From: Emergencia sp.
GTDB lineage: Bacteria; Bacillota; Clostridia; Peptostreptococcales; Anaerovoracaceae
DNA length: 42,102 bases
Direction: 5' to 3'
NCBI GenBank assembly: GCA_022767345.1
Contig: JALEOD010000068.1
Span: 1 to 42,102 of the forward strand
Under the pieces are notes generated by a model. The model worked only from the letters and a program-made list of their open reading frames with translations, was not told the DNA's origin and did no database searches. Numbering within the stretch: the first letter of the stretch is position 1; the number at the start of each line of letters is the position of its first letter. A program made the position numbers and the translations under genes. Shown one piece after another: positions 8,797 to 21,095 of this stretch.

Positions 8797-9531
8797 TTAC
8801 AAATTAATACGTGATATTTCTGATGAAATAATATCCGGATTTACCGACACAGAATTATCATAGTCCAGCATAACCATGGTCTCCAAAAATTTTATCGCAT
8901 TCACCATAGGTTCGATAATGGTTACGTTTATATGCTCCTGTCTTAGCCTTCTATTGAGACTATCAGCGATGTAGAACATTCCTGTGCATCCTAAGCATAT
9001 TGCTTTTATTCCCTGTTTTTCCGACATTTCCCTGCAGATTAACACTAATCTGTCAACCAGAAGTTCAGGCTTTTCACGAATCTCGTCAACTTCTAAATCA
9101 GCGGGTACAATGGATGTGATGTTTCCCATGATTCCTGCTTGCCTCGCTTTCCTTTCCTCATGAATAATGCCTGCTTTATCAGTAGTAATGATACCGATTT
9201 TATCTGCAAGTGTTAAGGCAGAGTGTATTGCTGGCTGATACGGACCAATCACAGGAACAATGCTCAATTCTCTGCACGGAGATACTCCCGGATCATCAAA
9301 ACAATTTATATACACACCGTCATAGGACTTGCCCAGCACTTTTACTAAATTTACGATTTGACACCCATTGTAAATTCCCTGCAAATCTGATTCGATTGAT
9401 GTAAAGCCTTCTGAAATCTGGGCAAATTCAACAATTGTATCAGGATTAAGATATCTGTGAAGATACGCCTTAATTTCATCTTTTCGATGTTGATACTCGG
9501 CTGTTACCGGGATTAAAAATAAAAGTTTCAT
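8797..9531 (-). CDS. Asp/Glu/hydantoin racemase family protein
   Basis: The 244-residue product has the two-cysteine layout of the cofactor-independent racemases: NCFDDPG near residue 79 and LGCTGMFYIAD near residue 180. These cysteines normally take and give the alpha proton. The N-terminal half (LIPVTAEYQHRKDEI and GFTSIESDLQG) is closer to hydantoin and Asp/Glu racemases than to MurI. It lies 11 bases downstream of the DUF917 gene on the same strand, so the two are one operon. DUF917 proteins are linked to hydantoin-type ring substrates, so racemisation of a hydantoin or amino acid derivative is a reasonable but unproved role. Confidence 0.82.
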   Translation of the reverse strand: MKLLFLIPVTAEYQHRKDEIKAYLHRYLNPDTIVEFAQISEGFTSIESDLQGIYNGCQIVNLVKVLGKSYDGVYINCFDDPGVSPCRELSIVPVIGPYQPAIHSALTLADKIGIITTDKAGIIHEERKARQAGIMGNITSIVPADLEVDEIREKPELLVDRLVLICREMSEKQGIKAICLGCTGMFYIADSLNRRLRQEHINVTIIEPMVNAIKFLETMVMLDYDNSVSVNPDIISSEISRINL

Positions 9532-9542
9532 GCAATCTCCTT

Positions 9543-10631
9543 TCAGTCAAGAAAAATTTCGTTGACATATTTCTGCATCTCAATTTCTAAAATCTTTTCT
9601 ATTCTTTCATATACATCTCGATACATGAGCCCTTTTCCCAGCAGCATTTTCTCCTTAGGAGCCGCGACTACTATAATATTGCATCCATTTTTAATTTGTG
9701 CTGTTGTCAAAATTTCTCCAGTTTCCCAATCTATCGTTGTAATCAGATCAGGGAATGTATGCAGCCTGTCTTTATTTTTTTCCACTGCCATATACTCATT
9801 GAAGAAATATAATTTGTATTTATCATTTTCGCTGCAAACTGTAAAAGAGCCATGATCCAAAGCATTCTCTGTATTGAGAATATAATTTTCCACTCTGCCC
9901 CGGCAAATCACAGTGCCTCCCACCACTGAACATACTGCAGTGATTTTATCCATAACGGTTTTTCCTTTTAGGTATGCTTCTCCAATCTTATATGCCAGAT
10001 CATAAGCCCCTGTGGCTCCGGCATTCTCAATCCAGAAAGGTGAAACTGGATTTCTTGCAACAGCCACGGCGCCTCCTGCCTTTGCCGCCGCATTTCTAAT
10101 TAGATCAGAGGTGGTTTCTATAGATCCGGTTAAAAGAATTTCTACGTACGTATTGGTTTCTTCTTTACCTCCTGCGCCTGCCTGAATTGTAATGTTGTTT
10201 CCACTCTTTTCTAATCCCAGTGAACCCATAATTCCAAATGGATGAGCCCTGCCGTCACAGGCAGAATTAATTACCGGAATATTAAGGCGGGCAGCTGGAA
10301 TAAAAGGCTCAAATGAGGATGAACCTCCCATTTCACATGGAATAAGCCCTATGATCTCTCGTTTTTCTTGTGATTGTATCAGTTTGAGAATTCTTTCGTA
10401 GACGTCCTCTGAATAATAAGCGGTATCTGATGCGGGAGAACCAACGCCGGATATGGTAAGAATTACGCCATCCTTTTTTCTGATTTCAGATAAGGGGACA
10501 ATCTGCACCTCGCCTAATTCCAGGGCTCTTTTTGCTGCAGCAAGACCTTCGCGAATATCTCCGCCGCCACCGCCGCCAAGAAAAAGGCTTCCGATTGCAA
10601 TTTTTTTTATATCGTCTAGATTAACTAACAT
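9543..10631 (-). CDS. DUF917 (S-methyl-thiohydantoin desulfurase-type) protein
   Basis: The 362-residue product belongs to DUF917/COG3535. It has the glycine-rich start SLFLGGGGGGDI followed by the IPCEMGGSSSFEPF block and the conserved NSACDGRAHPFGIM segment. Members are associated with hydantoin or thiohydantoin metabolism and often annotated as hydantoinase-like. The ATG at 10631 is chosen because GGAGGTA lies ten bases before it on the minus strand; the in-frame ATG at 10649 begins immediately before that Shine-Dalgarno sequence and would translate it, so it is unlikely. The gene has its own strong promoter and is divergent from the OPT transporter. Substrate unknown. Confidence 0.85.
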   Translation of the reverse strand: MLVNLDDIKKIAIGSLFLGGGGGGDIREGLAAAKRALELGEVQIVPLSEIRKKDGVILTISGVGSPASDTAYYSEDVYERILKLIQSQEKREIIGLIPCEMGGSSSFEPFIPAARLNIPVINSACDGRAHPFGIMGSLGLEKSGNNITIQAGAGGKEETNTYVEILLTGSIETTSDLIRNAAAKAGGAVAVARNPVSPFWIENAGATGAYDLAYKIGEAYLKGKTVMDKITAVCSVVGGTVICRGRVENYILNTENALDHGSFTVCSENDKYKLYFFNEYMAVEKNKDRLHTFPDLITTIDWETGEILTTAQIKNGCNIIVVAAPKEKMLLGKGLMYRDVYERIEKILEIEMQKYVNEIFLD

Positions 10632-10662
10632 TTTTTCTAGTACCTCCATATTGTAATGAAAG

Positions 10663-10677
10663 TACCGGAATTGCACA
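10663..10677 (-). promoter_or_regulatory. Shared element A at the DUF917 transcription start
   Basis: The 15 bases TACCGGAATTGCACA (plus strand) recur exactly at 13894-13908 in the other control region of this locus. Here the element starts where the DUF917 promoter would begin transcription. It is a likely binding site for the PucR-type regulator or another shared factor. Confidence 0.55.
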
Positions 10678-10682
10678 GTGCC

Positions 10683-10711
10683 AGTATAACCTCTTCAAAA
10701 ATAAAAGTCAA
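10683..10711 (-). promoter_or_regulatory. Promoter of the DUF917-racemase operon
   Basis: On the minus strand TTGACT (10711-10706) and TATACT (10688-10683) are separated by exactly 17 bases. Element A begins six bases further on. Confidence 0.7.
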
Positions 10712-10741
10712 CCCATATATTTTGAAAATTTTAAAATCTGC

Positions 10742-10770
10742 TTGACACTAATTTCCCTTCATGATAGACT
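10742..10770 (+). promoter_or_regulatory. Promoter of the OPT transporter gene
   Basis: A consensus TTGACA (10742-10747) lies 17 bases before TAGACT (10765-10770). Element B covers the bases immediately downstream, where transcription would start. Confidence 0.72.
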
Positions 10771-10777
10771 AATCCTA

Positions 10778-10805
10778 GTTAAAATGTCAATATTCATAAT
10801 TGTTC
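10778..10805 (+). promoter_or_regulatory. Shared element B at the transporter transcription start
   Basis: The 28-base element contains GTTAAAATGTCAATATTC, three variable bases and ATTGTTC. Its reverse complement occurs at 13943-13970 with 25 of 28 bases identical, in front of the DUF1177 operon. Its place just after the transporter -10 suggests an operator where a bound protein would block or gate transcription. Confidence 0.6.
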
Positions 10806-10854
10806 TCGCTTGCAATTTGATCTGCAAATCAAATCAAAAGAAAAGGAGAAAGTT

Positions 10855-12561
10855 ATGAATAACACAGAAAACAAGCAGAATGATATTTTGCTTGAAGAAC
10901 GAAAAGAGTTTGATAAGCATAAAATTACTGCAGATCAGATGCCAAACGTGAAAGAACCTGCAGTATTTGTTGTATCTATTATTGTTGCAATTTTAGGTTG
11001 TATCGTAGGGCTTCAGGTACAGATTCATACAGGTACTACCCCGGATACTTCCATCGTCGGCGCTATTTTTGCTATTCTAATTGCTCAGATTCCACTCAGA
11101 TGGTTAAAATCATTCAAAAACATTCATCGCCAGAATCTGGTGCAGACAACCATTTCCGGCGCAACTTTTGCTTCTGCAAATTGTATGTTTTTAAGTATAG
11201 GAATTCCTGTTATTATGGGCTGGCCTCAGCTGATGGTTCCTATGTTAATCGGTTCAACTCTTGCTACCGTTATCGATGCAACCATCTTGTATAAATCTTT
11301 TGGTTCCCCAATGTTTCCTGCTGAAGGAGCATGGCCGCCGGGAATTGCCGTGGCCGAATCCATCTATGCTATGGCCGATCGTGGAAAACGCGCAATTTTA
11401 TTACTGGTTGGCGCTGTAGGCGGATGGTGCGGCGCAATGATTGGAATTCCAATGGATTTAGTCGGTGTAGTATGGGTCGGAAGTTTAGTTGCCATGGGTG
11501 CCTTTGGCGTCGGTGCGCTGGTGAAAGGTATTTTATCCACGAATGGATTTTCTCTGACCTTTGCCGGTCATACTGCAACTTTTGCGACTGATATTTTTGG
11601 AGCAGACTTCTCATTTGCTGACAGCCTCTCGCTTTCCTATCTTGGTCATGGAGCTATGATTGGTGCCGGAATTATTTCTTTATTACAGTGTGCGAAAATT
11701 CTGTTCAGAAAAGAGGAGAATGGTTCTTCCGCTGCTTCAAATTTCGGAACAAGCCTTTCCGATATGAAGAGCGCTCTTGGAAAAGGATTCATCGCTTATA
11801 TTGTCATCGCTATCATCCTTGCTGTTTCCACTGGACTATATTACGAAATGAGCGTCGGCAAACTGATTACCTGGATCATTTTTGCTGCAATCGCAGCCCT
11901 GGTATCTGAACTCATCGTAGGCGTTTCCGCAATGCACTCCGGATGGTTCCCAGGTTTTGCTACAGCGCTGCTGTTCCTGATTATCGGCATGATGCTCGGA
12001 TTCCCGCCACTTCCATTAGCCATTCTCGCCGGATTCACAGCCTCTACCGGCCCGGCTTTCTCTGATATGGGTAATGATTTAAAGGCCGGCTGGATATTAC
12101 GAGGCAAAGGCGCCGACATGGAACTTGAGAAGGTCGGCAGAAAGCAACAATATTATGCAGAACTTCTTGGTTTTGCCGTTGCTTTCGTCATGGTTGCGAT
12201 TTTTGCAAAGAGTTACTTCAATCAGGGAATGTTTGCACCAATTAATTACGTATATCAGTCAACCATTGAAGCTGGCTCCACCATGGAAGTTATGAAATGG
12301 CTCGCCATCTGGGCTATTCCAGGCGCGTTAATCCAGATTCTCGGTGGAAATCATCAGGCAGGTATTCTGTTTGCAACCGGATTCCTTGTCGGATGGACCG
12401 AAGCTGGAATTGTAATTCTGATTGCAATTCTAATCAGAGCAATCGTTATCCGTAAACATCCTGAAAGAGATAGTATCTTTGCGATTCTCGGTGCAGGTGC
12501 ACTCGTAGGTTCCGCACTTCGCGATTTCTCTACCTCTATGCTCGGGCTGTTTAAAAAATAA
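10855..12561 (+). CDS. OPT/YSL-family oligopeptide transporter
   Basis: The 568-residue integral membrane protein has a short polar N-terminus and then more than twelve hydrophobic segments. It carries OPT-family features such as QIPLRWLKS, the FPAEGAWPPGIAVAE segment and the late GGNHQAGILFATGFLVGWTEAG region. OPT proteins import oligopeptides or metal chelates by proton coupling. The ATG at 10855 is preferred over one at 10810 because AAAAGGAG lies seven bases before it. It is divergent from the DUF917 operon and convergent with pucR, 14 bases apart. As the only transporter of the locus it probably imports the substrate that the DUF917, DUF1177, AroM and aminopeptidase proteins break down. 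Confidence 0.85.
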   Translation: MNNTENKQNDILLEERKEFDKHKITADQMPNVKEPAVFVVSIIVAILGCIVGLQVQIHTGTTPDTSIVGAIFAILIAQIPLRWLKSFKNIHRQNLVQTTISGATFASANCMFLSIGIPVIMGWPQLMVPMLIGSTLATVIDATILYKSFGSPMFPAEGAWPPGIAVAESIYAMADRGKRAILLLVGAVGGWCGAMIGIPMDLVGVVWVGSLVAMGAFGVGALVKGILSTNGFSLTFAGHTATFATDIFGADFSFADSLSLSYLGHGAMIGAGIISLLQCAKILFRKEENGSSAASNFGTSLSDMKSALGKGFIAYIVIAIILAVSTGLYYEMSVGKLITWIIFAAIAALVSELIVGVSAMHSGWFPGFATALLFLIIGMMLGFPPLPLAILAGFTASTGPAFSDMGNDLKAGWILRGKGADMELEKVGRKQQYYAELLGFAVAFVMVAIFAKSYFNQGMFAPINYVYQSTIEAGSTMEVMKWLAIWAIPGALIQILGGNHQAGILFATGFLVGWTEAGIVILIAILIRAIVIRKHPERDSIFAILGAGALVGSALRDFSTSMLGLFKK

Positions 12562-12575
12562 ACGAAAAGTATGTT

Positions 12576-13739
12576 TTATACAAATGCTTTTATTTTCATA
12601 ATTTTATAGATGAAATACAGCGTTTGATTAAAATCAAGAGAGCTTTTTCCATACGGAATGAGCTCTTTGATTTTATTCAAACGGTACCGTACTGTATTGA
12701 CATGAATGTGCAGGTGTTTTCCTGTTCTCACATGATCGAGATCGCATTCAATAAAGGTTACCATCGTCTCAATCAAATTAGAATGATGCGCTTTATCATA
12801 TTCCGCAATAGGCGTATACACTTCGTTAAAGTAATCCTCGAGAATCGGATTCGATGTCAGTTTAACCAAAAGTTTCGATAACCCGATATCTCTAAAGTGC
12901 ACCGTGCCGTTTATATCATGTGCGCCGGTTAAACCGGCCATCGAAGCCTGAACAATCGCTTCGTCCATCTTTTCCAGCGGCAGAAGTTCACTGATTCCGA
13001 TTACGGCATTAGGGAGGATTCTTCGAATAAACTCTATTTCATCTTCACAGAATTTCGTATTTGTTATGCTGTGATAAGACCAGATGATCAGCATTCCCTT
13101 CTTATAATGGCACCCTGATGCAAACTTGTTCTCCTTGATTTTGCTCAACAGATAAACCTCGTTACTGATGGCGGCGATTTTATTCGATGAAAGATCTGTA
13201 TTAACACAATAAAAAACTCTGATATTGGAATAAAAATTCTTATTAAGCAGAGAAATAATCTCAGCCTTTCTTTCTTCCTGACATTGCGAAGAAACCAGCT
13301 CGTGTACCAGATTTTCATGGAGTTCAGATTCTTGATAGGATAATTTTAACTCCATGATGGAAGAAATAATTAATGCGTACGGCGTGTTGCTGTCAATAAA
13401 AATAATGGGAATCTTGTACGCATCTGCCAGCGCATATGCACTAGCCGGAAGATCTCTTAAATATTCATCAATGATGCAGACTGCAGAAACCTTCAAATCA
13501 GCAAAATGATGGATCAAAGTATGGACATACTTTTCATTATTCACCCCATAGGCCATAGAAGTCAGATAAAAGTTCTGCCCAAAATTGATCGGTGTAGATT
13601 CCGCCGCTGTCTCATCATAATAGTTATCCAGTACGTTTACGTAGGATACGATGTTAGATAGCCCATTCTGACCGGCCTTTAATTCTGCATTAGCCATAAT
13701 CGGCAGCTGTAAAATATCCAGTACTGTAATATCCTTCAT
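12576..13739 (-). CDS. PucR-family transcriptional regulator
   Basis: The 387-residue protein starts with a PucR-type sensory domain (TVLDILQLPIMANAELKAGQ) and ends in the PucR C-terminal helix-turn-helix (HLHIHVNTVRYRLNKIKELI). A GGDEF-like middle domain is weak or degenerate. Such proteins usually activate catabolic genes in response to the pathway substrate. It sits between the two halves of the locus, has its own promoter, and is divergent from the DUF1177 operon. The two repeated elements A and B in the flanking control regions are the obvious candidate binding sites. AAGGTAGGG stands before the ATG as a moderate ribosome binding site. Confidence 0.88.
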   Translation of the reverse strand: MKDITVLDILQLPIMANAELKAGQNGLSNIVSYVNVLDNYYDETAAESTPINFGQNFYLTSMAYGVNNEKYVHTLIHHFADLKVSAVCIIDEYLRDLPASAYALADAYKIPIIFIDSNTPYALIISSIMELKLSYQESELHENLVHELVSSQCQEERKAEIISLLNKNFYSNIRVFYCVNTDLSSNKIAAISNEVYLLSKIKENKFASGCHYKKGMLIIWSYHSITNTKFCEDEIEFIRRILPNAVIGISELLPLEKMDEAIVQASMAGLTGAHDINGTVHFRDIGLSKLLVKLTSNPILEDYFNEVYTPIAEYDKAHHSNLIETMVTFIECDLDHVRTGKHLHIHVNTVRYRLNKIKELIPYGKSSLDFNQTLYFIYKIMKIKAFV

Positions 13740-13773
13740 AGTGCTTCCCTACCTTCCAGAATTGTATAATCAT

Positions 13774-13801
13774 ATTATAACAGTATTTTCTATACACGCA
13801 A
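13774..13801 (-). promoter_or_regulatory. Promoter of the pucR-type gene
   Basis: On the minus strand TTGCGT (13801-13796) and a perfect TATAAT (13779-13774) are 16 bases apart, 35 bases before the start codon. Confidence 0.6.
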
Positions 13802-13893
13802 ACTGTTTTGTATGATAATATATTTTTTCAATGCTTTTTTTATATTCCCATACAGTTCATTCTTGTTCTCCGCTTTGCTAAAATGAATTTCAA

Positions 13894-13908
13894 TACCGGA
13901 ATTGCACA
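13894..13908 (+). promoter_or_regulatory. Shared element A, second copy
   Basis: Exact 15-base match to 10663-10677. AATGAA lies shortly upstream of both copies with different spacing. Located between the divergent pucR-type gene and the DUF1177 operon. Confidence 0.55.
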
Positions 13909-13942
13909 AACGGAAAAAACGCAGGTCTTATATTCCAGACAA

Positions 13943-13970
13943 GAACAATCCCGAATATTGACATTTTAAC
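13943..13970 (-). promoter_or_regulatory. Shared element B, second copy (inverted)
   Basis: GAACAAT, three variable bases and GAATATTGACATTTTAAC: the reverse complement of 10778-10805 with 25 of 28 identical. It lies 30 bases before the DUF1177 start codon. It contains TTGACA, but no -10 follows at the right distance, so I read it as a protein site rather than a promoter. Confidence 0.6.
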
Positions 13971-13999
13971 AACAAATTAAAAACTTCAGGAGGTACATA

Positions 14000-14938
14000 A
14001 TGGTATTCAAACAAATGCTCGAGGTCTTTGATATTCTCGATGATATACATGCAAACGGCAGTAGAATGGAAGATTATCTCAAGTCCATTAAACCGGATGC
14101 AGATATCGAAGTAAAAACACTTTATGGTGATAAAGGAAAAACAGACCTGATCAAGGTTACTATCCCGGGAACCAACGGTCGTATAAAGGGTGGCGACGCA
14201 CCGACCCTTGGTTTAATTGGACGACTGGGAGGTCTGGGGGCAAGACCGGAAAGAATCGGCTTTGTATCCGATGGAGACGGTGCACTTACAGTATTAACTG
14301 CAGCTGCAAAGCTCCTTGACATGCAAAACAAAGGAGACTCTCTGGAAGGCGATGTAATTGCAGTTACTCATATTTGCAGTGATGCCCCGACCGAACCTCA
14401 TGAACCTGTAGACTTTATGGATTCTCCTATTAGCATGAAACAGTGTAATGATGAAGAAGTCTTCGATGAAATGGAAGCAATTCTGACCGTTGATACAACA
14501 AAGGGAAACAGAGTCATCAACACCATGGGCTTTGCCATTTCTCCGACAATAAAAGAAGGATACATTCTGAGAACCAGTGAAGATCTTCTGGATTTAATGC
14601 AGATGACAACAGGACGCCTTCCAAAAGTTTTCCCTGTTACAACACAGGATATTACCCCTTACGGAAACGACCTATACCATTTGAACAGTGTTTTGCAGCC
14701 GGCTGTTGCAACAAATGCACCTGTGGTAGGTGTTGCCATCACCACTGAAATACCTGTTCCGGGCTGCGGTACGGGTGCAACACACGGTGCAGATGTAGAT
14801 ATGACAGTAAGATTTGTCCTGGAAGTTGCCAAAGCCTATGGAAGAAAGCAATGTAGCTTCTACGATGAGATAGAGTTCAATCATTTAGTCGAACTCTATG
14901 GGCCTATGACACAGTTACAAACCATGGGGATGAAGTAA
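14000..14938 (+). CDS. DUF1177 family protein
   Basis: The 312-residue product matches DUF1177. Visible features are ILDDIHANGSRMEDYLKS at the start, a glycine-rich LIGRLGGLGARPERIGFVSD block, the acidic THICSDAPTEPHEPVDFMDS stretch and GCGTGATHGADVDMTVRF near the end. The His/Asp-rich motifs suggest a metal-dependent hydrolase related to zinc peptidases, but no reaction is established to my knowledge. CAGGAGGT precedes the ATG. It opens a tight operon with the AroM-family and aminopeptidase genes (1 and 9 bases between them). Its location in a peptide-transport and aminopeptidase locus suggests a role in peptide or cyclic amide breakdown. Confidence 0.82.
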   Translation: MVFKQMLEVFDILDDIHANGSRMEDYLKSIKPDADIEVKTLYGDKGKTDLIKVTIPGTNGRIKGGDAPTLGLIGRLGGLGARPERIGFVSDGDGALTVLTAAAKLLDMQNKGDSLEGDVIAVTHICSDAPTEPHEPVDFMDSPISMKQCNDEEVFDEMEAILTVDTTKGNRVINTMGFAISPTIKEGYILRTSEDLLDLMQMTTGRLPKVFPVTTQDITPYGNDLYHLNSVLQPAVATNAPVVGVAITTEIPVPGCGTGATHGADVDMTVRFVLEVAKAYGRKQCSFYDEIEFNHLVELYGPMTQLQTMGMK

Positions 14939-14939
14939 A

Positions 14940-15611
14940 ATGAAAAAGATAGGGTTTATTACAATAGGCCAATCTCCCAGAGATGATATTATGCAGGACA
15001 TCTTCCCCCTCATCGGCAACGACACGGAGATTTTGCAAAAAGGGGCCTTGGACGGCCTTTCCGAAGAAGACCTGAAAGCGATTGCGCCCAAGCCCGGCGA
15101 TACAGTTCTCGTCTCATCTCTTAGAAACGGACAATGGGTTTCCATGGCAGAAGAAAAAATTATAAGTCTTCTTCAAAAATGTATTGATGAACTAGAGATA
15201 TGCGGAGTCAGTGGAATCATGTTCTTGTGTACAGGGGATTTCAAGGATCTTCTTTCCTCTCATGTTCCTCTGATTTATCCGAACCGCCTTTTAACCGCTC
15301 TGATTCCTGCAATATGTACGAGAAAAAAACTTATCGTCCTCGTTCCTGAAGAAGCACAAAAAAATGAGGCCATCGCACAATGGGAAGGTATCGGTATGCA
15401 TACGGAGGTCTTTTCGATCTCACCCTATGCGTCTACCGAAGAAGAATTTACAGCACTGAGCCTTACTTTAAAAGACATGGACTGTGACTACATCCTTATG
15501 GATTGTATGGGCTACTCATCAGCCATGAAAAATATTCTCTGTCATGGCAGCAATAAAAATGTCCTACTTCCTCGCACTTTTGCTGCTTCTGTGCTAAAGG
15601 AACTTATTTAA
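14940..15611 (+). CDS. AroM family protein
   Basis: The 223-residue product begins KKIGFITIGQSPRDDIMQDI and later has FLCTGDF and ILMDCMGYSSAMK, the AroM-family pattern. The fold is related to the Asp/Glu racemases: two cysteines sit in CTGDF and DCMGY, positions comparable to the catalytic pair. The name comes from an E. coli gene next to aroL and says little about function. One base separates it from the DUF1177 stop. In this operon it may be a second racemase or isomerase acting on the imported compound; that is inference. Confidence 0.85.
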   Translation: MKKIGFITIGQSPRDDIMQDIFPLIGNDTEILQKGALDGLSEEDLKAIAPKPGDTVLVSSLRNGQWVSMAEEKIISLLQKCIDELEICGVSGIMFLCTGDFKDLLSSHVPLIYPNRLLTALIPAICTRKKLIVLVPEEAQKNEAIAQWEGIGMHTEVFSISPYASTEEEFTALSLTLKDMDCDYILMDCMGYSSAMKNILCHGSNKNVLLPRTFAASVLKELI

Positions 15612-15620
15612 GGAGGAAAT

Positions 15621-16565
15621 ATGAAATCACTCGTAGAAATATCAAAAAATATTTTAACAGATTGCATGGGCCTGAAAAAGGACGAAACACTGTTAGTTAT
15701 TACTGATACTTTAAAATATGAAATTGGAAAAGCTTTATACGAAGCCGGTCTTGAACTGGGTTGTGAATCCCTGCTCATGTCTATGCAGGTTCGTTCAGTC
15801 TCCGGTGAAGAACCTCCTGCAGCTGTAGCAAACGCAATGCTAGGAGCAGATGTTATCGTCTGCCCTACAGAAGAATCTCTGACCCATACCAATGCAAAGA
15901 TCCAGGCAGTCAAAAAAGGGGCTCGTGTAGGTACTATGCCGGGTATCACAGAAGAAATGTTTACAAAGGGCGCCATTACCGCCGACTTTAAGGAGGTCGA
16001 AAAGCGTACATTAGAGCTTACACAGATGCTCACAGATGCAAAAGAAGCTGTAATTGAAAAAGACGGTCTTTTGATGAAACTGAATCTGCAAAATAGAGAA
16101 GGTGTTCCAAGTACCGGTGTCTATAAAAATTCCGGGAACAGTGGAAACCTACCTTCCGGCGAAGCATATATTGCTCCGCAGGAAGATGGATGTAATGGAG
16201 AAACACGTATTGACGGTTCTATGGTGGGCGTCGGCACACTTACCGGCTCTCTTCATGTTACTGTAAAAAATGGTCAACTTCAAACAATTACAGGTCCCGG
16301 TTCTGAAGAGTTAGACATTTTATTTGCCAAACCGGAAAATGGAATTGTTGCAGAACTTGGCATCGGGACCAACGAAAAAGCGCTTCTTTGTGGAAACACC
16401 TTAGAAGACGAAAAAGTCTATGGTACTGTACATATTGCATTTGGCACAAATTCTTCCTTTGGAGGAACGAACAAGGCGGATTGTCATATGGATGGTATCA
16501 TTTTAAAGCCTACCCTATATCTGGACGGAAAAAAGATTATTGAGCAAGGCGAATTTGTTTATTAA
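15621..16565 (+). CDS. M29-type (thermophilic-aminopeptidase-like) metallopeptidase
   Basis: The 314-residue product has the pattern of the compact M29/aminopeptidase T relatives: SGNLPSGEAYIAPQE near residue 175 provides a metal-binding Glu, GIVAELGIGTN follows near residue 240, and HIAFGTNSSFGG with a later CHMDGII gives His and Asp ligands. All expected ligands appear present. GGAGGAAAT lies just before the ATG, nine bases after aroM-like stop. As the last gene of the operon, before a terminator, it probably releases an N-terminal amino acid or opens an amide in the pathway. Confidence 0.85.
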   Translation: MKSLVEISKNILTDCMGLKKDETLLVITDTLKYEIGKALYEAGLELGCESLLMSMQVRSVSGEEPPAAVANAMLGADVIVCPTEESLTHTNAKIQAVKKGARVGTMPGITEEMFTKGAITADFKEVEKRTLELTQMLTDAKEAVIEKDGLLMKLNLQNREGVPSTGVYKNSGNSGNLPSGEAYIAPQEDGCNGETRIDGSMVGVGTLTGSLHVTVKNGQLQTITGPGSEELDILFAKPENGIVAELGIGTNEKALLCGNTLEDEKVYGTVHIAFGTNSSFGGTNKADCHMDGIILKPTLYLDGKKIIEQGEFVY

Positions 16566-16620
16566 AAATCTTATTATCACGTCCACCCACACGATTATTT
16601 AGAGCGCCATAAGAAAAAAC

Positions 16621-16656
16621 AGAGACCTTGCATGATTTTGCGGGGTCTTTGTTTTT
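16621..16656 (+). terminator. Rho-independent terminator
   Basis: AGACC (16623-16627) pairs with GGTCT (16644-16648), with GCA/TGC inside and a T-rich tail. It ends the DUF1177 operon. Confidence 0.75.
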
Positions 16657-16720
16657 CTGGGTCTTGCCGAAAACTTCGAGGTAAACTTTGCAGTTATGAT
16701 TTGCGGAAGCAAAACTTTTG

Positions 16721-16749
16721 TTGGGAATTTCTTAGAAGTGTGGTATACT
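16721..16749 (+). promoter_or_regulatory. Extended -10 promoter for the transglutaminase-like gene
   Basis: TTGGGA (16721-16726), 17 bases, then TATACT (16744-16749) preceded by the TGn extension. The start codon lies 38 bases further. Confidence 0.6.
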
Positions 16750-16787
16750 GTATTTAATTTGTTACAACCGAGAGAGCAGGAGGCATT

Positions 16788-18212
16788 TTGAATTACGAAA
16801 TGAAGCATGAAGACCTTAAGTACCTGGCAGTTGCTTTGCCGGAGGACATTTTGAAAGAAAAGTGGAGCGGTCACTTCGACCGTGTGAGAGAAATTATTGC
16901 AAGACGGCTGGCAGGAGAGTTGACCTATGCTATGCGCTGCCGCCTTGAAATAGAGCTTACCAATCTGGAGCATTTGGAAAAATGCTATAATCGCACAGAG
17001 GAGGAGGCCCTGGCAATGATTCAGGAGAGAATTCCGTCCTTTACGGCGGAAGAACTCGATGAACTGCGCCTTGAAAATAAAGTGGATTTCATTTATCTGA
17101 ACGGAGAAGTCCGCTATCTGAGAAGTTTCTGCAGTACTCTTTTCAACGTATATCCGGAGATGGAGGAAAGAGAAGCGAAGGAAAAGGGCGATGCCTATGA
17201 GAAGACGAAGGCAAGGTCTGAGGATGTCGAGGTTATCGATGAATTTATTGAGAACTTAGAAGATGGGCAGGAGACCTCAGCCCATATTCACATTCGCCAG
17301 AAGGTGTGGATCAATGACGAGGCACTGGAAGAGGGCAAAACGGTGCATGTTCATGTGCCCCTTCCTGTGGAAAGACAGCAGATGAAAAATGTGAAAATTA
17401 TAAGCGTAACACCGGAGCCGAAGGCAATGCCGTCTCTTGAAGATGGTCACCCGGTTGCATACTTTGAGGAGAAAGCAACGGCAGGGCAGACTTTTGCTGT
17501 GGAATACAGTTTAGACCATGTGACGCATTTTGTGGATTTATCTTGGGCAGCCATTGAGAAACTGGGCGAAGACAAGGGTGAGATTCCGGCAGAAGCAGCC
17601 TGCTATCTTGACGAGCAGCTGCCGCATATTCAGTTCACGCCATATCTGGAAGGTCTGGCAGAAACCTTAAAGGAGCCGTCGGGAGATTTACTGAAAACAG
17701 CTAGAAATATTTATGATTATGTAACGACTAAAGTGACCTACCGCTTTGTCAGAGATTACGCGGCAATCGATAACCTCAGTGAATACTGTGCAGTAAATCT
17801 GCGCGGCGACTGCGGTATTCAGGCACTGCTGTTTATCACCCTCTGCAGAATCTGCGGCATTCCGGCAAGATGGCAGTCGGGGCTGGACACCAAACCGGGA
17901 AGCCTGGGGCAGCACGACTGGGCGCTGTTCTATCTTCCGTCCAAAGGCTGGCTGGGCGCAGACCTGTCCTACGGCGGAAGTGCTTACAAGAAAGGTAAGA
18001 TGAAGCGCTGGGATTATTTCTTTGGAAATGTTGATCCGTTCAGAGTGCCTATTAACGATTCGTTCCAGTCGGAAATGGTTCCCGCAAAAAAATTTCCTAG
18101 AGAAGACCCTTGCGATAATCAGTGCGGAGAATTGGAATACGAAGACCGCGGCTTGTATGGAAGTGACTGGGGCTGCGACTATGAGGAAATCGATATTCAT
18201 AGGATTAAATAA
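16788..18212 (+). CDS. Transglutaminase-like cysteine protease-fold protein
   Basis: The 474-residue cytoplasmic protein (no signal peptide) carries a transglutaminase-like domain in its C-terminal half. The catalytic triad is visible: Cys342 in RGDCGIQALLF, His376 in GQHDWALFYL, and the Asp in LGADLSYGG about 15 residues on. The N-terminal 270 residues are helical and then beta-rich, as in other bacterial proteins of this type that may act as peptidases or amidases. The start is TTG at 16788: AGGAGG ends only four bases before it, whereas the next in-frame ATG is 16 bases away. It is transcribed alone between two terminators. Substrate unknown. Confidence 0.82.
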   Translation: MNYEMKHEDLKYLAVALPEDILKEKWSGHFDRVREIIARRLAGELTYAMRCRLEIELTNLEHLEKCYNRTEEEALAMIQERIPSFTAEELDELRLENKVDFIYLNGEVRYLRSFCSTLFNVYPEMEEREAKEKGDAYEKTKARSEDVEVIDEFIENLEDGQETSAHIHIRQKVWINDEALEEGKTVHVHVPLPVERQQMKNVKIISVTPEPKAMPSLEDGHPVAYFEEKATAGQTFAVEYSLDHVTHFVDLSWAAIEKLGEDKGEIPAEAACYLDEQLPHIQFTPYLEGLAETLKEPSGDLLKTARNIYDYVTTKVTYRFVRDYAAIDNLSEYCAVNLRGDCGIQALLFITLCRICGIPARWQSGLDTKPGSLGQHDWALFYLPSKGWLGADLSYGGSAYKKGKMKRWDYFFGNVDPFRVPINDSFQSEMVPAKKFPREDPCDNQCGELEYEDRGLYGSDWGCDYEEIDIHRIK

Positions 18213-18235
18213 ATATAGTTTTATGGCTTATTTGG

Positions 18236-18280
18236 AAACTGCATGGAGGGTAATTTACCGCCTATGCAGTTTTTATTTTT
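18236..18280 (+). terminator. Rho-independent terminator
   Basis: AAACTGCAT (18236-18244) pairs with ATGCAGTTT (18264-18272) with an inner GGTAA/TTACC stem and a T-rich tail. Confidence 0.88.
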
Positions 18281-18311
18281 CATTAAGGACGGCTATTACC
18301 TTAAAAACAAC

Positions 18312-18341
18312 TTGCCAAAATCTATCGGGGGGGGGTATAAT
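18312..18341 (+). promoter_or_regulatory. Promoter with a G9 tract in its spacer (possible phase variation)
   Basis: TTGCCA (18312-18317) and a perfect TATAAT (18336-18341) are 18 bases apart, and the last nine spacer bases (18327-18335) are all G. Slippage by one base would bring the spacer to the optimal 17 or to 19. The start codon of the YfcC-type transporter is 30 bases downstream, so this is very probably its promoter. Confidence 0.65.
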
Positions 18342-18370
18342 ATATATGTATTTTATAGGGAGGTAAACAA

Positions 18371-19768
18371 ATGGAACAAAAGAAAAAGAAATTTGCGGTG
18401 CCTCATGTATATATCCTGCTGCTAGCACTTATTCTGTTATGCAGTATTCTTACGTATATTATACCAGCAGGAACATATGACATGATGACACTGGAAGACG
18501 GAAGAGAAGTTGTTAATGCAGAAACTTTCCACAATGTCGATTCGACACCGGTCAGCTTTATGCAGTTCTTGACCGCAGTACCCCGTGGTATGCAGGAATC
18601 TGCGCAGATCATCTTCTTCATCTTTATCGTTGGCGGAACTATGGCTGTGGTACAGGAAACCAGAGCGATTGAAGCCGGCATGGGAAGATTGATTAAGGCG
18701 CTGAAGGATAAGTCTATCATAATCATTCCGATTATCATGATTCTGTTCTCTATCTGCGGCTCTGTATTCGGTATGGCGGAAGAGACTATTCCGTTTATTC
18801 CGATCTTCGTATCGCTGTGTATCGCCATGGGATTCGACTCCATCACAGGTACAGCTATTGTGCTGTGCGGTGCAGGTGCAGGATTTGCAGGTGCTTTCAT
18901 GAATCCGTTTACGGTTCAGGTTGCACAAGGTATTGCAGGCGTGCCGCCGCTTTCAGCAATGGGCTTCAGAGTAGTTTTATACATCTGCTTCGTATTGCTG
19001 GCAGTCGTATTTGTAATGAGATATGCGCTGAAGATCAAGAAGAACCCGCAGCTTTCCAGCATGCATGAGTTTGACAAAAACAGAGAAGAGTCTGTAGATT
19101 TGGACTCCTTACCTGAATTTGGTGGCAAGGAAAAAGCAATTCTGCTGGTTTTCATCGTTTCCATTATCATATTAGTATACTGCGTTATTCAGTATGGATG
19201 GTATATGGACGAAATTGCAGCGCTGTTCCTGTGTATGTCTTTCATCGTTGCAGCAATCGCAAGAATGGGATTCAACAATTACGCAAATGTACTTGGAAGA
19301 GGTATGGCTGATATCGCTTCTGGTGCGCTGGTTGTAGGTTTTGCAAGAGGTATCCTGGTTGTGATGAACGATGGACAGATTTTACATACGATTCTGCAGG
19401 CTGCAGCTTCTGGACTGAGCAAACTGCCGTCTATGGTATCCGCTATCGGAATGTACATTTTCCAGTGCCTGCTCAACTTCATTGTTCCTTCAGGTTCTGG
19501 ACAGGCTGCCGTTTCTATGCCGATTATGGCACCTCTGGGTGATCTGGTAGGTGTAACAAGACAGACTGCTTGTCTTGCATTCCAGATGGGTGATGGTATC
19601 TCCAATATCTTCACACCGACTTCCGGCTACTTTATGGCTGGACTGGCTATTGCAAAAGTGCCTTGGAGCAAATGGGCAAAATGGATTCTGCCTTTAATCG
19701 GATTAGAATATCTGTTAGGCGCAATTTTCATTGTTGTTGCACAGGTAATGCAGTTAGGACCATTCTAA
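18371..19768 (+). CDS. YfcC-family transporter (C4-dicarboxylate/peptide-carrier type)
   Basis: The 465-residue membrane protein has about twelve hydrophobic segments. It shows the YfcC/COG1288 pattern: HVYILLLALILLCSILTYII then PAGTYDM at the N-terminus, GSVFGMAEETIPFIPI, and the re-entrant VPSGSGQAAVSMPIMAPLGD near residue 380 with FTPTSGYFM after it. YfcC proteins are annotated as anaerobic C4-dicarboxylate carriers or basic amino acid antiporters, but substrates are poorly known. GGGAGG precedes the ATG. A terminator separates it from an M20 peptidase and a D-aminoacylase-like gene in the same direction, so uptake or antiport of an acylated amino acid or small peptide is a fair guess. Confidence 0.85.
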   Translation: MEQKKKKFAVPHVYILLLALILLCSILTYIIPAGTYDMMTLEDGREVVNAETFHNVDSTPVSFMQFLTAVPRGMQESAQIIFFIFIVGGTMAVVQETRAIEAGMGRLIKALKDKSIIIIPIIMILFSICGSVFGMAEETIPFIPIFVSLCIAMGFDSITGTAIVLCGAGAGFAGAFMNPFTVQVAQGIAGVPPLSAMGFRVVLYICFVLLAVVFVMRYALKIKKNPQLSSMHEFDKNREESVDLDSLPEFGGKEKAILLVFIVSIIILVYCVIQYGWYMDEIAALFLCMSFIVAAIARMGFNNYANVLGRGMADIASGALVVGFARGILVVMNDGQILHTILQAAASGLSKLPSMVSAIGMYIFQCLLNFIVPSGSGQAAVSMPIMAPLGDLVGVTRQTACLAFQMGDGISNIFTPTSGYFMAGLAIAKVPWSKWAKWILPLIGLEYLLGAIFIVVAQVMQLGPF

Positions 19769-19782
19769 ACAAATGTTGACAG

Positions 19783-19815
19783 AAAAAAGGGCATATTGAA
19801 TGATATGCCCTTTTT
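19783..19815 (+). terminator. Rho-independent terminator after the YfcC-type gene
   Basis: AAAGGGCATAT (19786-19796) pairs with ATATGCCCTTT (19803-19813) over a six-base loop, flanked by A and T runs so that it may work in both directions. Confidence 0.9.
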
Positions 19816-19922
19816 CATAACCTAGGAAAGTACCTAGAGAAGTATCGCCCTGTAGTGGGCGGCATATGTGCATAGGAAGCTTTGCTTTCGTTATGTACAT
19901 TTTTCTTATAGGAGGAAACAAA
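19816..19922 (+). promoter_or_regulatory. Structured leader before the M20 peptidase gene
   Basis: Three possible hairpins follow in close order: CTAGG/CCTAG (19822-19837), CGCCC/GGGCG (19846-19861) and a longer imperfect one, ATGTGCAT with ATGTACAT (19866-19900) with GGAAGC/GCTTTC at its top. The last is followed by five T and then by the AGGAGG of the M20 gene. This could be an attenuator or cis-acting RNA element. It matches no riboswitch class that I recognise. Confidence 0.4.
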
Positions 19923-21095
19923 ATGAATTATGGGGAATTAAAAGAGAAAATTTTTTCGGAGATTGAAAAATATAGGGAAGAATTGACCGTGCTGAATGAC
20001 AATCTTGCTGATAATCCGGAAATTTCCGGAGAGGAGTATGAAACTTCTAAGAAAATCGTCAAGCTGCTTAAGTCTCACGGTTATCAGGTAGAATATCCCT
20101 TCGCTGGACGTGACACGGCGTTCAAAGGTGTTTACGGGGAAAACCAGCATACGCATAAGGTGGCAATTTTGACCGAATACGATGCACTGCCTGAGATTGG
20201 TCATGCCTGTGGTCACTGTCTGTCAGGTTCCATCAGCATTTTAGCAGGTTTGGCAACGAAAGAGCTGCAGGACGAGCTGGACACGGATATTCACATTATA
20301 GGTACGCCCGTGGAGGAAACGGATGGGGCTAAGTGCCAAATGGTAGAAGATGGTGTATTCGATGGATACGATATGGCAATTATGGTGCACCTGTACAATA
20401 CCAGTCTGCTGACACCAAAGCTGCAGGGGTTGGCATCCTATATGTATTGTTTCCATGGTAAAGCAGCCCACGCTTCAGCGGCACCTTGGGAGGGACAAAA
20501 TGCGTTTAATGCAGCGCAGCTGATGTTCCATGCGATTGATATGCTGCGACAGCATAGTACACCGGATGCGCAGTTTCACGGCATTATCAGAAATGGAGGA
20601 GAAGCACCAAATATTGTTCCTGAGGAAGTTACAGCAGAAATTTTTATTCGTGCTCTGGATAAGCATTATCTAAGAAGTCTGATTGACAAGGTAGACGATT
20701 GTGCTGCAGGTGCGGCTATTGCGACCCAGACGACTTGGGACAAATATCCTACAGCAGCCATTTATGATAATATGAAGCCGAATCCTACAGGTGAGGCAGC
20801 GCTGGCTGAGATCTATGATGAACTGGGGATCGAAGTAAACGGGGATCACGTTAAAATCTTTGGCTCTTCCGACGCTGGAAATGTCAGCTTTGCTTGCCCG
20901 GGTTTCCACCCTTGTCTGCAGATTGTCGATGAGAATGTTCCGATTCATACCAGAGAATTTGCAGAGGCAATGAAGAGTGAACGCGCCCATCAGGGACTGG
21001 TAGACGGAGCTAAGATTATCACACTGCAGATCGCAAAGATTTTTGGTGATGAAGAACGGCTGAAAGCCATGAAGGCAGATTTTGCGGAGAAGTAA
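19923..21095 (+). CDS. M20 family metallo-amidohydrolase (AbgB/PM20D2-like)
   Basis: The 390-residue enzyme has the two-zinc pattern of M20 amidohydrolases: GHACGHCLSG near residue 100 supplies ligands, GTPVEETDGAK near residue 135 the catalytic Glu, and a late HAS/HTREFAEAM region completes the site. The DNA-encoded dimerisation insert (about 180-300) is complete. Relatives cleave aminoacyl dipeptides or p-aminobenzoyl-glutamate. The ATG at 19923 has AGGAGG at a good distance; an in-frame ATG at 19866 lies in the hairpin region and is rejected. It is followed after two bases by a small membrane protein and then by a D-aminoacylase-like gene, an acyl-amino-acid or peptide salvage set. Confidence 0.9.
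   Translation: MNYGELKEKIFSEIEKYREELTVLNDNLADNPEISGEEYETSKKIVKLLKSHGYQVEYPFAGRDTAFKGVYGENQHTHKVAILTEYDALPEIGHACGHCLSGSISILAGLATKELQDELDTDIHIIGTPVEETDGAKCQMVEDGVFDGYDMAIMVHLYNTSLLTPKLQGLASYMYCFHGKAAHASAAPWEGQNAFNAAQLMFHAIDMLRQHSTPDAQFHGIIRNGGEAPNIVPEEVTAEIFIRALDKHYLRSLIDKVDDCAAGAAIATQTTWDKYPTAAIYDNMKPNPTGEAALAEIYDELGIEVNGDHVKIFGSSDAGNVSFACPGFHPCLQIVDENVPIHTREFAEAMKSERAHQGLVDGAKIITLQIAKIFGDEERLKAMKADFAEK

Follow-up and report, generated by a model that had tools for sequence, protein, structure and literature searches.

What compound would be handled by seven genes, arranged in two divergent arms, that encode a racemase-family protein, a DUF917 protein, an OPT family transporter, a PucR-type regulator, a DUF1177 protein, an AroM protein and a short M29-like protein? 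We address this question for a stretch of 42,102 nucleotides from Emergencia sp. (contig JALEOD010000068.1, referred to as the window). The seven-gene set probably imports and degrades a small ring-shaped or modified dipeptide, and we give a probability of about one half to the reading in which the locus forms a single catabolic module acting on a small, most likely cyclic, compound derived from a peptide, with the roles proposed below and under PucR control.

Locus organization and shared promoter words

The initial annotation had placed seven families together at 8797-16565, which was confirmed by ORF calls and Pfam profiles, except that two genes likely start later than their ORFs: GGAGG lies upstream of ATG 10631, the likelier start of the DUF917 gene, and AAGGAG precedes ATG 10855, the likelier start of the OPT gene. 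The features of the locus are as follows:

8797..9531, minus strand: Asp/Glu/hydantoin racemase family protein (referred to as RAC), 244 aa; PF01177, 91 bits
9543-10676, minus strand: ORF of the DUF917 / S-Me-THD protein, likely start ATG 10631; PF06032, 83 bits, and PF20906, 92 bits
10632-10854 and 13740-13999: intergenic regions with the core CCGGAATT
10663..10677, plus strand: shared promoter word 1, copy 1, TACCGGAATTGCACA
10779..10795, minus strand: shared promoter word 2, copy 1, GAATATTGACATTTTAA, towards DUF917
10810-12561, plus strand: ORF of the OPT family transporter, likely start ATG 10855; PF03169, 67 bits
12576..13739, minus strand: PucR-type regulator, 387 aa; PF07905, 60 bits, and PF13556, 47 bits
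13894..13908, plus strand: shared promoter word 1, copy 2
13953..13969, plus strand: shared promoter word 2, copy 2, towards DUF1177
14000..14938, plus strand: DUF1177 protein with a predicted zinc-exopeptidase (clan MH-like) fold; PF06675, 439 bits
14940..15611, plus strand: AroM protein; PF07302, 229 bits
15621..16565, plus strand: short M29-like protein, probable metallo-aminopeptidase, 314 aa; PF02073, only 38 bits (cut-off 27)

Gaps of 1-11 bases separate the genes within RAC-DUF917 and within DUF1177-AroM-M29. The genes of the locus may be co-expressed. The upstream flank is a 587-aa ORF that looks PEP-carboxykinase-like by eye, and downstream are transglutaminase-like, YfcC-like carrier and M20 genes, the M20 protein being encoded at 19866-21095. 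In L080 and L081, both near relatives, these flanking genes were not seen with the cluster within reach of their contigs (that of L080 stops about 300 bases past the M29 gene), and matches to the transglutaminase and YfcC profiles were confined to the window among all loci searched. The borders 8797-16565 therefore fit the unit.

The promoters of the two arms share words of 18 and 15 bases, while the longest word shared in 300 shuffled pairs was 13. Word 1 is exact at both promoters and has no match with up to three mismatches elsewhere in the window; copy 1 of word 2 includes the TTGACA of a minus-strand promoter-like match. In L080 and L081, word 1 occurs at both promoters with one or two mismatches, and word 2 is identical at both places in L080 and absent in L081 and L117; Emergencia timonensis keeps one of the two words. 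A search allowing up to three mismatches found neither word in L117, which is closely related and shares the divergent gene order. Genome-wide, word 1 matches exactly at two sites and with two mismatches at 13, compared with 2 for its backward control. Word 2 has 27 sites with three or fewer mismatches against 15 for its control, so these looser matches are uninformative. Two matches with three or fewer mismatches appeared in the shuffled window in 30 of 100 shuffles for word 1 and in 1 of 100 for word 2; two such matches to word 1 are not rare on their own, and the shared-word argument rests on exactness and placement. PucR would bind the shared words and control both arms.

Recurrence of the gene set and two versions of the cluster

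Among 398 evenly sampled genomes, DUF1177 was found in 46, DUF917 in 64, and AroM in 41 (after excluding G052, G088, G200 and G226, the four weak genomes among 45). DUF1177 and DUF917 occur together in 24 genomes versus 7.4 expected (p 9e-10, with relatedness ignored), at least 19 of which have the pair within 10 kb (positions entered by hand), and DUF1177 and AroM occur together in 36 versus 4.7 expected (p 1e-36). We further compared 78 non-redundant DUF1177 neighbourhoods, drawn from 126 loci after removal of 7 in which no DUF1177 ORF was called, 36 that had under 4.5 kb to one side, and 5 near-duplicates. All six partners of DUF1177 are present in nine neighbourhoods, eight of them in one direction, and the full sets include Emergencia, Blautia, Anaerococcus, Paenibacillus and Jeotgalibacillus. 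Based on the genome counts, the shuffles and the neighbourhoods, both the set and the words are beyond chance. Co-occurrence in other genomes, the check proposed in the initial annotation, is thus borne out, as the families both co-occur and adjoin there.

The DUF1177 loci carry the labels Firmicutes, Spirochaetes, Synergistes, Proteobacteria, Aminicenantes and, in one case, Bathyarchaeon, and several are metagenome bins. No viral copy of DUF1177 was confirmed, and a megablast search for plasmid copies of the locus gave no match. A protein family of about 280 aa lies near DUF1177 in 12 loci.

Two transporter/peptidase versions sit on the DUF1177 (often DUF1177-AroM) core. OPT is present in 27 of the 78 neighbourhoods, together with DUF917 in 22 and a racemase in 21 of these; a Dpp/Opp-type ABC transporter is present in 19, together with M20 in 17 and DUF917 in three. 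In 50 of the 78 neighbourhoods no DUF917 was detected, and ring opening by DUF917 is therefore not the core step. A Serratia version contains a peptidase S51 gene without DUF917; S51 peptidases have a dipeptidase role, so a linear Asp-dipeptide fits at least as well there. More generally, these clusters may catabolise a linear, damaged or D-residue dipeptide (e.g., isoaspartyl or D-aspartyl), with the racemase-fold proteins repairing stereochemistry, peptidases finishing the degradation and no ring being opened. This is a possible, if on balance unlikely, explanation, consistent with the peptide transporters and the exchangeable peptidases M29, M20 and S51 that accompany DUF1177, with the neighbourhoods that have no visible DUF917, and with the exopeptidase-like predicted fold of DUF1177. 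However, the frequent DUF917 in clusters of the OPT type, to which the window belongs, argues against it, as do the hydantoinase A/B and cyclodipeptide oxidase (CDO) genes that adjoin some clusters.

Candidate activities of the encoded proteins

The two cysteines of PF01177 racemases are their catalytic bases, and RAC has both, C77 and C182 being present in all 46 aligned rows, window included (here and below, only rows of 0.8-1.25 times the length of the window protein were kept in residue counts). Its closest PDB relatives are 3qvj, labelled as a putative hydantoin racemase or allantoin racemase, and the allantoin racemase 5lfd. Together with the PucR domain of the regulator, this likeness would suggest purine or allantoin catabolism, as would L079, a second DUF917-M29 locus in the same genome adjoined by a PF02133 cytosine/purine/allantoin-type permease and a PucR-like gene, and the M20 protein downstream of the cluster, which weakly matches allantoate amidohydrolases, below cut-off and among many others. 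In the window, by contrast, the transporter is of the peptide type and a peptidase-like gene is present, and none of the seven genes matches an allantoinase or allantoate hydrolase, leaving this explanation with very little probability.

The AroM protein is a second candidate isomerase. C97 and C189 are conserved in 73 of 73 aligned rows, and its AF2 model (pLDDT 95.2) gave 62 Foldseek matches at E<=0.001 (TM about 0.55-0.7), the best being the hydantoin racemase 2eq5 (E 1e-7). AroM is thus predicted to have the Asp/Glu/hydantoin racemase fold, with the two cysteines of the PF01177-fold superfamily. By sequence the link is weak (E 0.008 to 2eq5; 40% over 18 columns in an hhalign comparison with RAC).

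M29 aminopeptidases bind metal through Glu, Glu, His, His and Asp, and the short M29-like protein keeps these five positions (E181, E245, H271, H289 and D291), in common with PepS (4icq), AmpT (2ayi) and AmpS (1zjc). In 57 aligned rows, E181 is present in 44, E245 and H271 in 45, and H289 and D291 in all, while 12 rows have Gln/His/Glu at the first three positions. The protein matches its family weakly. With 314 aa, it is about 100 residues shorter than the proteins compared (408-418), and the best PDB match of its profile is the dioxygenase NicX (7cn3), followed by PepS.

For DUF1177, searches by its name and by PF06675 found no paper on its function; among 5.39 million papers searched, a single one has the word, and its title concerns DUF1996. 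Its AF2 model (pLDDT 87.7, pTM 0.90) gave 155 Foldseek matches at E<=0.001 with TM about 0.5 and rmsd about 6-8, the best being 1qq9 (E 9.4e-8, TM about 0.5, rmsd 5.9). In the predicted model, DUF1177 therefore has the exopeptidase fold of zinc exopeptidase clan MH; this fold resembles that of glutaminyl cyclases and of M28-, M20- and M17-type zinc exopeptidases, but no sequence similarity was found: phmmer at E 0.001 detected no PDB relative, and a profile search up to E 10 returned unrelated weak matches. A relationship with M20 by sequence was rejected (hhalign probability 0.6%), the link coming from the fold prediction. All 42 aligned rows have D93, H124 and D165, while D91 and C126 each occur in 41 and H262 in 40; an Arg apparently occupies the expected position of the first His ligand.

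The closest curated models of the DUF917 protein are thiohydantoin desulfurase (NF058529, 252.5 bits) and S-methyl-thiohydantoin desulfurase (NF058532, 246 bits), and 2o3i is a remote PDB relative. Catabolism of a thiohydantoin or an ergothioneine-type compound, in which DUF917 would be the desulfurase, would account for this likeness, which is greater in a relative (346 and 307 bits in L037). None of these scores nevertheless reaches its curated cut-off (440 and 450, respectively), and the window protein was rejected as a true thiohydantoin desulfurase; it belongs to the same family but keeps different gene company. In addition, the Pfam and NCBIfam scan of ten window proteins (8797-21095) gave no ergothionase or thiourocanate hydratase match, and, to our knowledge, neither OPT nor peptidases would be expected in such catabolism. 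We consider this explanation improbable.

Relation to cyclodipeptide oxidase clusters and a proposed route

The initial annotation knew of no described pathway joining these families. This point is not supported: in PMC11055893, PF01177, DUF917, AroM, OPT and peptidases are enriched around CDOs that are not linked to cyclodipeptide synthases (CDPS), and DUF1177 occurs zero times in that paper. Other points of the interpretation are supported, as the families do co-occur, the two arms share promoter words and cyclic-amide chemistry fits. Searches on neighbouring topics found nothing on the seven-gene set beyond this paper. According to PMC11055893, non-CDPS CDO clusters share with the window a racemase, DUF917, AroM, an OPT or ABC peptide transporter, and peptidases, and CDOs occur in anaerobes too, whereas the window set also includes DUF1177 and PucR.

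The five accompanying gene kinds are thus all present in the window, while the CDO subunit CDOB (PF19585) was not found in its genome (G000). CDO-subunit homologues lie near DUF1177 in three of the 78 neighbourhoods, of which L149 counts solely through an A-like ORF, so labelled by likeness to ORFs adjoining CDOB; across the loci, the B subunit lies near DUF1177 in L052, L085 and L076. In the 398-genome sample, three of the ten CDOB genomes have DUF1177 versus 1.2 expected (p 0.10, not above chance), and eight have DUF917 versus 1.6 expected. The locus looks like an oxidase-free, DUF1177-centred variant of CDO-type clusters.

A role in making or tailoring a peptide secondary metabolite, which PMC11055893 weighs for CDO-like clusters, has little probability here: no assembly-line family was found among the ten proteins scanned, peptide importers and PucR would point to uptake, and a CDPS search of the genome gave no match, although its control gave none either.

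Hydantoin utilisation comprises a hydantoin racemase, a hydantoinase and a carbamoylase. The window shares the hydantoin-racemase-like protein and the cyclic-amide logic, but its seven genes have no match to hydantoinase A/B (HyuA/HyuB) or carbamoylase; two PF01968 matches are present elsewhere in the genome. HyuA/HyuB genes adjoin the cluster in L124, and a pair in L128 groups with them by BLAST. Cyclic-amide chemistry fits because of these genes, the model likeness of DUF917, the CDO genes, and the PF02133 permease of L079.

In our best reading, a putative dipeptide-derived cyclic amide, such as a diketopiperazine, a hydantoin-capped amino acid or a cyclic imide, would be taken up, epimerised, ring-opened and hydrolysed, in this order. 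OPT would import the compound, and RAC and the racemase-fold AroM may invert or isomerise the stereocentre beside the ring carbonyl via their paired cysteines. The thiohydantoin-desulfurase-like DUF917, the exopeptidase-fold DUF1177, or both may then hydrolyse the ring or a neighbouring amide, and the short M29 aminopeptidase would cut the linear product to amino acids for fermentation by the anaerobe. PucR would sense the compound or its product and act on both arms through the shared words. A broader proposal, that DUF1177 as an exopeptidase-fold hydrolase and AroM as its dedicated epimerase open cyclic dipeptides or imides in a widespread, oxygen-independent route of bacteria and archaea, is tentative and rather unlikely.

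DUF1177 is widespread (46 of 398 sampled genomes), yet nearly absent from the papers searched, and the recurring gene set, the fold prediction and the two candidate promoter words make this orphan family assayable. Should the substrate prove to be a diketopiperazine, the locus would explain how these very stable compounds are used by anaerobes and by soil bacteria.

The DUF1177-centred locus and its gene order

The seven ORFs and family assignments initially proposed for this locus were borne out by ORF calls and a Pfam scan, with M29 the weakest of the seven (38 bits). The features discussed here are:

8797-16565, both strands: seven-gene locus with a RAC (PF01177 Asp/Glu/hydantoin racemase family)-DUF917 arm (-), a DUF1177-AroM-M29 arm (+), and the OPT transporter (+) and PucR regulator (-) between them
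10663-10677 and 13894-13908: word 1, 15 bases
10779-10795 and 13953-13969: word 2, 18 bases, 17 of them placed

Sequence inspection places the likeliest DUF917 start at ATG 10631, with GGAGG 5' of it (listed start, GTG 10676), and that of OPT at ATG 10855, preceded by AAGGAG. Downstream (16788-21095) lie a transglutaminase-like protein, a YfcC-like carrier and an M20 amidohydrolase, outside the conserved set. Among the named matches listed, which may omit records from the window's own genome, the DUF1177 protein is closest to those of a Eubacterium MAG (95% identical) and Emergencia timonensis (87%), which suggests an anaerobe akin to Emergencia as the source.

Across 398 genomes drawn evenly from the phylum, the window's own included, DUF1177 is present in 46, DUF917 in 64 and AroM in 45 (41 without four weak matches). 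Co-occurrence of these families elsewhere had been proposed as a check and, in tests that treat the genomes as independent and ignore kinship, each pair exceeded expectation: DUF1177 with AroM in 36 genomes (4.7 expected), DUF1177 with DUF917 in 24 (7.4 expected), and AroM with DUF917 in 24 (6.6 expected). Of the 24 genomes with both DUF1177 and DUF917, at least 19 have the two no more than 10 kb apart.

We examined two sets of DUF1177 loci: 46 (L033-L078) from the other 45 sampled genomes carrying the gene, and 80 named ones (L080-L159), which are biased towards the window protein because they were chosen for similarity to it, as the best 80 of at least 586 relatives. A DUF1177 ORF was called in 119 of the 126; 83 of these extended 4.5 kb or more to either side, and removing loci with DUF1177 at least 95% identical left 78. 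Within 8 kb of DUF1177 we found AroM in 46, PucR in 32, M29 of the window type and M20 peptidases in 29 each, DUF917 in 28, RAC and OPT in 27 each, Dpp/Opp ABC transporters in 19, IclR in 14, cyclodipeptide oxidase (CDO) in 3 and hydantoinase A/B-like genes in 2; these counts are lower bounds, since the simple ORF caller loses genes overlapped by longer reverse frames, and the IclR, ABC and hydantoinase labels are BLAST groups with one representative scanned each (for ABC, the binding protein only). Two cluster versions are apparent: the OPT version carries DUF917 in 22/27 and RAC in 21/27, whereas the Dpp/Opp version carries M20 in 17/19 and DUF917 in only 3/19.

All six DUF1177 partners are present in nine of the 78 neighbourhoods (L034, L035, L049, L075, L081, L083, L090, L136 and L158). 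In eight, all genes run in the same direction, as PucR-RAC-OPT-DUF917-DUF1177-AroM-M29 or a near permutation, while the ninth (L081, E. timonensis) has the divergent order of the window. So does the Eubacterium MAG locus L080, which also has all seven genes and falls outside the count because a contig end truncates it. The strongest argument that the two window arms belong together is that other genomes carry these genes as single operons. The seven-gene locus is real and conserved.

Several neighbourhoods show further variation. In L075 (9228-10171), DUF1177 is broken into two overlapping ORFs by a frameshift or assembly error, the rest of the operon being complete. The Serratia locus L116 reads IclR-OPT-DUF1177-AroM-S51-RAC, without DUF917; its peptidase S51 gene (11634-12326) lies between AroM and RAC, a position filled by an ORF of similar size in Brenneria (L145) and Biostraticola (L153). 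A family of about 280 aa occurs near DUF1177, AroM or M29 in L049 (8422-9282) and 11 further loci, and the four members scanned gave no Pfam match above cut-off.

Shared promoter words

Word 1 is common to both intergenic regions in direct orientation, and word 2 in inverted orientation; the longest word shared in 300 pairs of dinucleotide shuffles was 13, against 15 and 18 observed. Allowing up to three mismatches, word 1 and the 17 placed bases of word 2 each occur in the whole window only at the two intergenic sites. L080 keeps word 2 identical at both sites and word 1 with one and two mismatches. L081 has lost word 2 and keeps word 1 at both sites with two mismatches each, plus a third site inside OPT with three. 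In the window, as in L080 and L081, CCGGAATTNCAC is found at each of the two promoters; elsewhere in the fetched loci it has one match only, in L108. On this sequence evidence both arms may be under joint control. Of the two words, the first is the more promising candidate operator, which we infer PucR would bind. Neither word was found, even allowing three mismatches, in L117, an uncultured Eubacterium locus with the same divergent order, which speaks against a strict rule.

Predicted enzymes

The closest solved relatives of RAC are hydantoin/allantoin racemases, and both cysteines are kept in 46/46 aligned rows. AroM is weakly related to racemases at the sequence level; its confident predicted model (pLDDT 95.2) has hydantoin racemase 2eq5 as top Foldseek match (E 1e-7), and two cysteines and a nearby Asp are invariant (73/73 rows). 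DUF1177, for which sequence search found no PDB relative, yielded a model (pLDDT 87.7, pTM 0.90) matching zinc exopeptidases (M28, M17, M20) and glutaminyl cyclases with E down to 9.4e-8, at TM values near 0.5 and an rmsd of roughly 6-8. Asp91, Asp93, His124, Cys126, His134, Asp165, His227 and His262, conserved in 40-42 of 42 rows, could form a metal site, but Arg apparently occupies the expected first-His ligand position.

The window M29 (314 aa), whose best solved relative is NicX, has Glu181, Glu245, His271, His289 and Asp291, which we take to be the metal ligands of M29 aminopeptidases; the alignment to these was partly visible. Twelve of 57 M29 rows deviate at three of the five metal positions, with Gln/His/Glu replacing Glu/Glu/His. 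These paralogues (from L037, L038, L041, L042, L046, L052, L085, L091 and L096) exceed the window protein in length, where length was seen, and possibly catalyse another reaction.

The nearest models of the window DUF917 are thiohydantoin desulfurases, with scores under their cut-offs; a second DUF917 of the same genome reaches only 80 bits against the thiohydantoin desulfurase model. In its locus (L079, contig C46, 5830-11092) it stands, divergently oriented, in line with a PucR-like gene, a PF02133 cytosine/purine/allantoin-type permease and a window-like M29, as if M29, DUF917 and PucR were a unit with a swappable transporter. Two hydantoinase A (PF01968) matches lie elsewhere in this genome (contigs C56 and C39).

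Relation to cyclodipeptide oxidase clusters

The initial annotation knew of no described pathway joining these families. This was not supported: in PMC11055893, PF01177, DUF917, AroM, OPT and peptidases are grouped around CDOs. There, the majority of CDO loci lack a cyclodipeptide synthase; the synthase-free loci are enriched in PF01177, DUF917, AroM and transporters (e.g., ABC peptide, OPT), many contain peptidases, and a racemase-type fold was already inferred for AroM. That paper makes no mention of DUF1177. The locus type was partly anticipated in print.

In our sample the CDO B subunit (CDOB, PF19585) is present in 10/398 genomes, 8 of them with DUF917 (1.6 expected) and only 3 with DUF1177 (1.2 expected, p 0.10). 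The distance between CDOB and DUF1177 is about 1.2 kb in G045 (L052) and some 8 kb in G215 (L076); homologues are also present in L085, and L149 has an A-like ORF. Four fetched CDO loci (L176-L179) collectively contain relatives of the window DUF917, M29 and RAC, of other clusters' PucR and of peptide ABC transporters, and none of the window's own PucR at E 1e-5. As CDO loci have relatives of several cluster genes while DUF1177 is missing from PMC11055893, the window locus, oxidase-free and DUF1177-centred unlike the clusters described there, is best seen as a variant of the synthase-free CDO-type clusters.

A linear modified dipeptide is a real alternative as the substrate. What the analysis shows is the gene content, its conservation and the predicted folds; for the oxidase-free variant, we infer the substrate class and each reaction as follows: OPT would import the substrate, RAC and AroM would epimerise it, DUF917 and DUF1177 would hydrolyse a ring or amide, and M29 would cleave the dipeptide, with PucR controlling the locus. 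AroM joins DUF1177 more often than DUF917 does, which suggests that DUF1177 and AroM carry out the key step.
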